From: an uncultured Verrucomicrobiales bacterium
GTDB lineage: Bacteria > Verrucomicrobiota > Verrucomicrobiia > Verrucomicrobiales > Akkermansiaceae
Reading direction: 5' to 3'
Assembly (NCBI GenBank): GCA_938008215.1
Contig: CALLLS010000021.1
Location: 1-64,000 of the forward strand
DNA length: 64,000 bases
The notes under the pieces were generated by a model, which was not told where the DNA came from, did no database searches, and saw nothing but the letters and a program-made list of their open reading frames with translations. The translations under genes were made by a program, and so were the position numbers. This document shows, one piece after another, positions 6,573-8,458 of the stretch. Position 1 is the first letter of the stretch; every line of letters begins with the position of its first letter.

Positions 6573-7400
6573 ATGATCACTATTACAAACTGGTGGGCAG
6601 AGGGAGAGACCTCTGGATCACGTAAGCTCGCTAATCCTAAGACCTTCGCTAGCCCTTCTGGGAATGACAGCAAGGGATATCGCCAACTTATGAGGAAATC
6701 CGCGGACGGACTCCTCGCATTTGGTGTTTTTCAAGCTCTGTGCCAATGCATGGCAACGCTTGGGATGGAAGCCAGAAGGGGCGGAAACTTCGTGAATGGA
6801 GATGGTAGCCTTATGGAAATAGAAGACCTAGAAGACCTTACACGTATTCCCACTGACATCCTACTTACTGCCATAAATATCCTAGAAGAAATCGGCTGGA
6901 TATCACGCATCTCCCATGAATCTGCCGATGGCATCCCATCGCCTCCCACTGATCTCCCATCACCCCCCCACTCTTTGCCAGTAGGAGAGGAGAGGAGAGG
7001 AGGGGAGAAGGAAGGGATAGGAGAGGGAGGGGATAAGCCCCCACCCAAACCTATTTTTGAACCAAACGAAAACGTCAGGGACGCCAAGGCAATCATCGAC
7101 GGTATCAATCCAGACTGGAGGAAGGCGGGGGGATGGTCGCCAACCGAGGAGCGATCTCTGATGGAATCCATGAACTACGTCCTCACCCTGCCACTCGATA
7201 CCATCGAGGCACTGAAAACCTACCGAGCCACCGCCACGGACACCTTTCACCAGAAATACTTCCTGAATCGAAACCTCTTCATCAGGAAAATGTCAGAACT
7301 CGCCCAAGCCTCCCTCGCCCAGAAACCAAAGCCCAAAAGAAACGGCAGAGGAGGCGGGCCATCAAAAATTGAAGACTTCCTAATCCCTGAAAAAAAGTAA
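6573..7400 (+). CDS. Phage replication organizer-like protein
   Basis: 275 residues in three parts: a winged-helix-like N-terminal region (residues 1-115, with LMRKSADGLLAFGVFQALCQ and DLTRIPTDILLTAINILEEI), a low-complexity Pro/Ser then Glu/Arg/Gly linker (about 116-165), and a helical C-terminal part. This is the plan of phage replisome organizers that bind an origin with the N-domain and recruit the helicase loader; a DnaC-like gene follows two places on. The linker is coded by a skewed pyrimidine/purine tract that may itself be the origin. Confidence 0.6.
   Translation: MITITNWWAEGETSGSRKLANPKTFASPSGNDSKGYRQLMRKSADGLLAFGVFQALCQCMATLGMEARRGGNFVNGDGSLMEIEDLEDLTRIPTDILLTAINILEEIGWISRISHESADGIPSPPTDLPSPPHSLPVGEERRGGEKEGIGEGGDKPPPKPIFEPNENVRDAKAIIDGINPDWRKAGGWSPTEERSLMESMNYVLTLPLDTIEALKTYRATATDTFHQKYFLNRNLFIRKMSELAQASLAQKPKPKRNGRGGGPSKIEDFLIPEKK
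6909..7036. other. Strand-skewed tract, candidate phage replication origin
   Basis: Two copies of ATCTCCCAT (6909-6917 and 6952-6960) and related C-rich words are followed by about 55 bases of almost pure purine with repeated GGAGAGG words (6981-7036). All of it lies inside the linker-coding part of the replication organizer gene, as the lambda origin lies inside gene O. This is inference from layout; low-complexity coding is the alternative. Confidence 0.35.
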
Positions 7401-8426
7401 ATGTGGATACTACCCAAACAATTACACACCTCAGCCTTTGCAGTGGATACGGAGGGATTGGGCTTGGACTTAAGCGAGTTCTCCCATCTCTCAGAGACAT
7501 CGCTCATGTGGAGATCGAAGCCTTCGCGGTCGCAAACTTGGTCGCAAAGATGGAAGCGGGTCAGCTGGATGCGTGCCCTATCTGGACGAACCTTAAGACC
7601 TTCCCATTCGCAGACTTTCACGGAAAGGTGGACATCCTCACTGGAGGCTACCCTTGCCAACCCTTCAGCGTTGCAGGGCAGAGAAAAGGAAAGAACGACC
7701 CCAGACACCTTTTCCCTTATATTGCAAAGGGAATCCGAGCAGCAAGACCTACTCTTTGCTTCTTCGAGAACGTGGAAGGACACCTATCGGAAGGGTTTAG
7801 AGAAGTTCAACAGAGCCTACGCCGCTTGGGTTACAGAGTTGAGGCAGGAATATTCTCAGCGTCAGAAATCGGTGCACCACACCAGCGGAAAAGGCTCTTC
7901 ATTCTCGGCGTGGAGAACTCCGTGTGCCTCAGAGGGCGAGGGTGGGATAGACTACAATTACGACCAAGTGAAATCACCCAAAATCAAACTAAGGGATCAA
8001 GTGGCGAAAAATTGGGGGACTCCCAACACAATGGACTGCCTACCCAGCCGATCTTACGAGGCGATGAAAAACCAAGCAACCAACGGAGGAAGAAAGAATC
8101 GAGAGAGACCCGGGAATCTCAGGGAGCAAGTAGACCCTCTCATGTGCCAAGCATATCAGGAAGCCAAGAAGGAGGCGAACTTCCCCACCCCCACAGCGAG
8201 GGACGGCACAGGAACGAACAGCCCAGCGGACAGAGAGAGGAACAGCCCAGGGCTTCCATCCTTCATACCAGAACTCAATTCCCAGCCAGACCAAACGAAC
8301 CCCAGCACGAGTGGGAAGAACCAAGAACTAAATCCAAAATGGGTAGAGCAGTTAATGGGACTTCCAGTCGAGTGGACGAGCTTCGACTCCTCGGAAATGG
8401 AGTCGTCCCAGACACCGCAGAACTAG
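7401..8426 (+). CDS. Overlapping-frame protein sharing DNA with the methylase
   Basis: A 341-codon frame starting at ATG 7401, two bases before the methylase start and in a different frame, open for over 1 kb inside the methylase gene. Its product contains WVTELRQEYSQRQKSVHHT, WRTPCAS, FPTPTARDGTGTN and NPKWVEQLMGLPVEWTS. From memory the WVT-LR-YS-R-KSAH, WPTP and NPxWVExLMGxPxGWT words recur in phage proteins lying beside or across C5 methylases, which argues that the frame is translated. Function unknown. The replication gene stops one base before, so coupling to it is possible. Confidence 0.6.
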   Translation: MWILPKQLHTSAFAVDTEGLGLDLSEFSHLSETSLMWRSKPSRSQTWSQRWKRVSWMRALSGRTLRPSHSQTFTERWTSSLEATLANPSALQGREKERTTPDTFSLILQRESEQQDLLFASSRTWKDTYRKGLEKFNRAYAAWVTELRQEYSQRQKSVHHTSGKGSSFSAWRTPCASEGEGGIDYNYDQVKSPKIKLRDQVAKNWGTPNTMDCLPSRSYEAMKNQATNGGRKNRERPGNLREQVDPLMCQAYQEAKKEANFPTPTARDGTGTNSPADRERNSPGLPSFIPELNSQPDQTNPSTSGKNQELNPKWVEQLMGLPVEWTSFDSSEMESSQTPQN

Positions 8427-8458
8427 CCTTTAGAACCATAATCCAGAAATTCCAATAA
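7403..8458 (+). CDS. C5-cytosine DNA methyltransferase
   Basis: 351 residues from GTG 7403. Motif I LSLCSGYGGIGLGL (10-23), motif IV GGYPCQPFSVAGQRKG with the catalytic Cys (about 80-95), motif VI FFENVEG, motif VIII APHQRKRLFILG and C-terminal motif X LRLLGNGVVPDTAELA are all present and in order. The protein would methylate cytosine in phage or host DNA and could protect against restriction. Residues 180-320, where target recognition lies, are unusually polar and low in hydrophobics and coincide with the part also coded in the alternate frame. No partner restriction enzyme is visible. Confidence 0.9.
   Translation: MDTTQTITHLSLCSGYGGIGLGLKRVLPSLRDIAHVEIEAFAVANLVAKMEAGQLDACPIWTNLKTFPFADFHGKVDILTGGYPCQPFSVAGQRKGKNDPRHLFPYIAKGIRAARPTLCFFENVEGHLSEGFREVQQSLRRLGYRVEAGIFSASEIGAPHQRKRLFILGVENSVCLRGRGWDRLQLRPSEITQNQTKGSSGEKLGDSQHNGLPTQPILRGDEKPSNQRRKKESRETRESQGASRPSHVPSISGSQEGGELPHPHSEGRHRNEQPSGQREEQPRASILHTRTQFPARPNEPQHEWEEPRTKSKMGRAVNGTSSRVDELRLLGNGVVPDTAELAFRTIIQKFQ

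Follow-up and report, generated by a model that had tools for sequence, protein, structure and literature searches.

A probable dual-coded, two-subunit C5-cytosine DNA methyltransferase with nearly co-extensive reading frames in a phage-like locus

Two-subunit C5-cytosine DNA methyltransferases whose beta subunit is split from, or overlaps, the alpha subunit are already known. The beta gene of M.EcoHK31I is the shorter of the two and is nested within alpha, where it starts and is read in a different frame. For M.EcoHK31I (YGGCCR), PMC3404938, citing Lee et al. 1995, gives the large subunit motifs I–VIII and X, the small one motif IX alone, and assigns the predicted TRD to the large subunit. 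M.AquI (CYCGRG) is a C5 methylase split into alpha and beta (PMC3404938).

Positions 7401–8458 of the window, a 64,000-nucleotide stretch of DNA from an uncultured Verrucomicrobiales bacterium, very probably encode an orphan C5-cytosine methyltransferase of the type known from M.EcoHK31I and M.AquI, belonging to a phage or prophage and dual-coded as an alpha and a beta subunit. Two frames are nearly co-extensive here: the methylase frame runs from a GTG at 7403 to 8458 (351 aa), and the alternate (+1) frame from an ATG at 7401 to 8426 (341 aa). The twin starts share the letters ATGTG, with the GTG 2 nt after the ATG. A sequence-only reading had described this overlap, with both frames open for more than 1 kb, and its coordinates were exact. 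The neighbourhood is phage-like: the pair is flanked by exonuclease VIII, RusA and DnaC-like genes, an endolysin-like gene lies nearby on the opposite strand, and the neighbouring ORFs that were examined included no recognisable restriction gene. The same genome holds two more, weaker C5-methylase matches (G000:C27:952-1446 and G000:C53:3299-3784). The features of the locus are as follows.

7398..7400, + strand: TAA of a 275-aa upstream ORF, directly adjoining the twin start
7401..7405, + strand: twin starts ATGTG (alternate/beta ATG at 7401, methylase/alpha GTG at 7403)
7401..8426, + strand: beta (alternate-frame) ORF, 341 aa, with N-terminal extension, TRD-like modules and motif IX
7403..8458, + strand: alpha ORF, 351 aa, predicted C5 cytosine methylase catalytic subunit with motifs I–VIII and X
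7430..7468, + strand: alpha motif I (LSLCSGYGGIGLG), from the sequence
7646..7666, + strand: alpha motif IV, catalytic GYPCQPF; G82, P84, C85, Q86 and P87 invariant in 55 homologues
7766..7774, + strand: alpha motif VI (ENV); E122-N123-V124 invariant
7911..8012, + strand: beta TRD-like module 1 (WRTP...), aa 171–204; W171 and P172-equivalent columns nearly invariant
8013..8180, + strand: beta TRD-like module 2 (WGTPNTMDCLPSRSYEAM...), aa 205–260, from homologue comparison and the copy in related locus L100
8181..8327, + strand: beta TRD-like module 3 (FPTPTARDGTG...), aa 261–309
8331..8375, + strand: candidate beta motif IX word NPKWVEQLMGLPVEW, missing from the alpha frame
8381..8431, + strand: alpha motif X (LRLLGNGVVPDTAELAF), with its counterpart in the beta frame in L100

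The methylase frame carries the catalytic complement of a C5 methylase, with motifs I–VIII (PCQ, ENV, RxR) and motif X, and matches PF00145 (6.2e-35), phrog_363 (1.8e-53) and TIGR00675 (8e-30). R162 and R164 are also invariant in the homologue alignment. The catalytic domain was predicted with confidence by AlphaFold, and the model fold-matches HhaI/HaeIII over about 180 columns; residues 190–330 fall mostly below pLDDT 50 and form no folded TRD. This chain does not hold motif IX and a TRD together with its catalytic core. The sequence-only reading had credited the methylase with all key motifs, which is right for I–VIII and X but not for motif IX or a foldable TRD. It had also described the target-recognition part of the methylase as constrained where the alternate frame is most protein-like. 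That segment of the methylase frame looks like overprinted, disordered sequence.

The alternate-frame protein appears to supply what alpha lacks. It matches phrog_1008, 'DNA methyltransferase', over aa 69–331 (3e-21), the only library name it received, as Pfam and NCBIfam profile searches returned none; a TniQ match in a search of solved structures was at chance level (E 0.64) and was rejected. Modelled alone, beta was poorly predicted by AlphaFold (mean pLDDT 56), and we call its modules TRD-like. Beta proteins mostly contain one to five such 'W-x-TP' modules, with a median length of 38 aa. After these modules comes NPKWVEQLMGLPVEW, the kind of word that stands before GNGVVP in single-chain methylases, such as gp75 of Mycobacterium phage Estave1 (EWMMGWPAGW ... 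GNGVVP). We assign it as motif IX by this placement and by its resemblance to the word in single-chain phage methylases; the alignment of Estave1 gp75 with HhaI spans motifs I–VIII alone, and motif IX falls outside it.

Across homologues, the placement of the motif IX word is complementary. A strict pattern, applied to 91 non-redundant methylases, detected it in the frame that overlaps the methylase in 62 cases, in the methylase frame itself in 11 and in a downstream ORF in seven, and never found it twice. Of the 11 that the strict pattern misses, six carry a variant in the frame that overlaps the methylase (L030, L088, L116, L133, L139 and L144) and two (L147 and L159) carry one in the methylase frame; the other three are L146, the truncated L149 and L182, which comes from a Klebsiella phage.

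Stop codon counts and substitution patterns together show that 7401–8458 holds two true genes that overlap on the same strand (+1), each of them constrained, as the sequence-only reading had suggested. A search of viral contigs ranked by the methylase protein alone gave 80 loci, all 80 of which have a homologue of the alternate protein in an open +1 frame (E about 1e-24 to 1e-53), overlapping the C5 methylase; the +2 frame of these loci is riddled with stops. For a null expectation, we fixed one protein and shuffled its synonymous codons in 55 non-redundant homologous pairs. With the methylase protein fixed, the alternate frame had 0 stops against 321.8 (sd 12.5) expected, and with the alternate protein fixed, the methylase frame had one against 638. 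The unused +2 frame, our control, matched the null (873 observed, 882 expected). The depletion extends along the whole alternate frame, with 0 stops in each segment against 92, 79, 62 and 91 expected, the first of these being the first 60 codons, and the frame is open through the motif I–VIII region in 55 of 55 pairs. For the pair of the window alone, synonymous shuffles averaged 6.2 alternate-frame stops where none was observed, and none of 20,000 shuffles was free of stops. In two relatives (L007 and L106), a frame break interrupts one of the two frames, through either decay or sequencing error.

Substitution patterns also indicate selection in both frames, rather than in the methylase alone, with a strength that varies along the gene. 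Codon-position diversity shows a methylase signature in the 5' half and an alternate-frame signature at the motif IX end, where alternate third positions vary most. We computed dNN/dNS and dSN/dSS from custom-written, OLGenie-style counts; since control genes without an overlap also give dNN/dNS below 1, raw ratios were read only beside controls. Over methylase codons 1–172, alternate-frame dNN/dNS was 0.23, and the two controls, single-chain methylases and neighbouring genes, gave 0.36 and 0.67; dSN/dSS in the 5' half was 0.63, compared with 1.26 and 1.65, respectively. Alternate-frame dNN/dNS fell to 0.15 in the TRD segment and 0.03 in the motif IX segment, and the signal was weakest near alternate residues 116–155 (0.71). 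The 5' signal of selection on the alternate frame is real but modest. The cleanest single piece of evidence is the comparison of module 2 with its copy in L100, which sits past the alpha stop, outside the alpha ORF, and is thus not overlapped. Over 56 aa, the two share 84% identity in the alternate frame and 25% in the methylase frame, and their 53 differences fall 11, 3 and 39 times at alternate codon positions 1, 2 and 3. Purifying selection in both frames is accompanied by conserved starts, as in an overlapping gene pair: an ATG precedes the methylase start by 2, 5, 8 or 11 nt in 77 of the 80 methylase-ranked viral loci and in 53 of the 55 non-redundant ones (ATGTGGATACTACC, ATGACATGGATAC and similar).

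Among related loci there are single-chain, tandem-split, nested and co-extensive arrangements, and the pair of the window is co-extensive. In actinophages such as Baby16 and Euratis, a short alpha with motifs I–VIII precedes a separately encoded beta that has LPTP modules, the motif IX word and motif X. Locus L100 (2957-4863) has an alpha that ends after motifs I–VIII and a 630-aa beta-frame ORF in which eight module-like segments occur together with motifs IX and X, in the order TRD-IX-X. Mycobacterium phage Hades (L121:1492-2205) has an alpha of just 237 aa, which is not long enough to include a usual TRD, and an unannotated 205-aa +1 ORF with PTP and motif IX. The tandem beta Baby16_78 (6e-80), the nested Bloom_57 (6e-72) and the alternate protein of the window (3e-21) all match phrog_1008, which marks the beta subunits of tandem-split methylases as homologues of the alternate family. 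The single-chain methylases L155–L158 and L160–L166 have +1 ORFs no longer than the null. In a further set of single-chain, Estave1-type loci (L113 and L150–L154), a +1 ORF of 177–192 aa matches the alternate profile at about 77–201; it may be what is left of an earlier beta, or it may echo the conservation of the methylase. At L092:6045-6228, some 2 kb downstream of the complete gene, there is a second copy of the methylase motif X end.

These relatives and the counts above bear on three other explanations of the locus. If the methylase frame were the sole gene, chance or codon bias would have to account for the open alternate frame, and the similarity of that frame among phages would echo methylase conservation. 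Some echo is plausible in the 5' half, where even the unused +2 frame reaches identities of 0.46–0.53 against a null of 0.30, so that part of the alternate similarity there may derive from alpha. An echo does not account for 322 expected stops being absent from every segment with the methylase protein held fixed, for a conserved alternate ATG, or for the third-position excess in module 2, and the +1 ORFs of single-chain methylases do not exceed null length. The stop counts and the L100 comparison refute this explanation, and we give it almost no credence.

A programmed frameshift could instead fuse motifs I–VIII, read in the methylase frame, with the TRD-IX part of the alternate frame into one chain, and the order of single-chain phage methylases such as Estave1 (I–VIII, PTP modules, IX, X) fits such a product. 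The alternate frame, however, has its own conserved ATG and stays open through motifs I–VIII, neither of which frameshifting needs; motif X, being in the methylase frame, would require a second shift; and in the tandem-split phages alpha and beta each have an ORF of their own. We regard a fused chain as very unlikely. It is likewise very unlikely that the alternate protein is real but no subunit, for example a regulator, an inhibitor or an anti-restriction protein overprinted on a complete methylase. This would suit the N-terminal 120 aa, which have no assigned function, and the single library name behind the annotation. Against it, motif IX occurs in alpha or in beta but never in both, the alternate protein is homologous to tandem-split betas, and L100 unites it with motif X.

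A two-subunit enzyme encoded by both frames is thus the explanation that we prefer. Alpha, from GTG 7403, would provide the SAM-binding and catalytic core (I–VIII) plus motif X, and beta, from ATG 7401 in the +1 frame, a chain of TRD-like 'W-x-TP' modules and the motif IX that alpha lacks. Ribosomes that reach the upstream stop, or re-initiate after it, would choose between starts 2 nt apart, so that a single message would yield both subunits, which would assemble into the active enzyme. An upstream ORF of at least 70 codons ends within -11 to +4 nt of the alternate ATG in 38 of the 55 non-redundant homologues. A twin start that often abuts an upstream stop suggests that the start is chosen after termination or at one landing site, and in the window, where the TAA abuts the twin start, termination-reinitiation coupling is possible. 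Heterodimer formation, a role of beta in target recognition and translation from both starts are inferred through homology with split, single-chain and fused methylases. The enzyme would likely be used to protect phage DNA against host restriction.

The modules of beta may also be the units by which specificity changes. Module clusters reappear at differing positions in otherwise diverged beta proteins, and module 2 of the window is 51–89% identical across backbones that are just 21–48% identical, which suggests module exchange among beta proteins. Such exchange is known for the TRDs of multispecific phage methylases, and the beta modules may recognise the target. We lean slightly towards a broader picture in which modules are swapped between phages while alpha remains open through them as a disordered linker, specificity evolves by exchange under the constraint of two frames, start choice sets the subunit ratio, and such pairs are widespread and often half-annotated.

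Annotation of these pairs, which occur in phages of many different environments, is uneven. In two records of a matching Synechococcus phage locus, L002 (PP438429.1) and L003 (OM868082.1), one annotates the alternate frame ('hypothetical protein') and the other the methylase frame. The sequence-only reading had expected databases to treat the frames as two unrelated entries; annotators do so or pick one, but the alternate protein is evidently related to the methylase through its putative motif IX and TRD-like modules. Both frames are annotated as DNA methyltransferase in the nested pairs of Paenibacillus larvae phages. Elsewhere, the 'cytosine-specific methyltransferase' gp46 of an Acidovorax phage (L115, OP131590.1, 1484-2617) and a 'hypothetical protein' of a Sphingomonas plasmid (L123, 1402-2493) are beta-frame products, and the catalytic frame alongside each is open yet unannotated. 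Phage methylase annotation may thus give one frame only, and predictions of methylation activity or specificity that consider just the methylase frame would overlook the part that likely recognises the target. The pair is of wider interest as a widespread, nearly fully co-extensive overlap of two proteins that both have recognisable relatives and probably form one enzyme, and the occurrence of single-chain, tandem-split, nested and co-extensive forms among those relatives makes it a test case for the origin of overlapping genes. A literature search that took in few subscription journals found no report of a phage dual-coding C5 methylase, and no description of near-complete co-extension with twin starts, of such breadth in viral contigs or of TRD-like modules in an overprinting frame.

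Compared by description with M.EcoHK31I, the pair of the window shows the same partition, with motifs I–VIII and X in alpha and motif IX in beta, and its beta ORF likewise overlaps alpha in another frame. It differs in that its ORFs are nearly co-extensive with twin starts, whereas the beta of M.EcoHK31I is short and internal; in that its modules lie in beta, whereas PMC3404938 puts the predicted TRD in the large subunit; and in being an orphan phage-type gene, apparently outside any restriction system. With M.AquI and the tandem-split phages (Baby16 78/79, Euratis 33/34), it shares a catalytic alpha with I–VIII and a beta that combines the recognition region with motif IX. An AquI-type beta also carries motif X, however, as L100 does, whereas motif X of the window is in the alpha frame, and the phage tandem pairs overlap by just about 25–100 nt, compared with about 1 kb here. 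Single-chain phage C5 methylases such as Estave1 gp75 keep this order of motifs, again with LPTP modules and with motif IX ahead of GNGVVP, but hold everything in one frame. The Paenibacillus larvae phages (Tadhana gp54/gp55, Bloom_56/57) resemble the window in having a beta with PTP modules and motif IX within the methylase gene in the +1 frame; their nested beta is about 234 aa long and starts about 200 nt inside alpha, whereas the window has the twin start from which two nearly co-extensive frames run.
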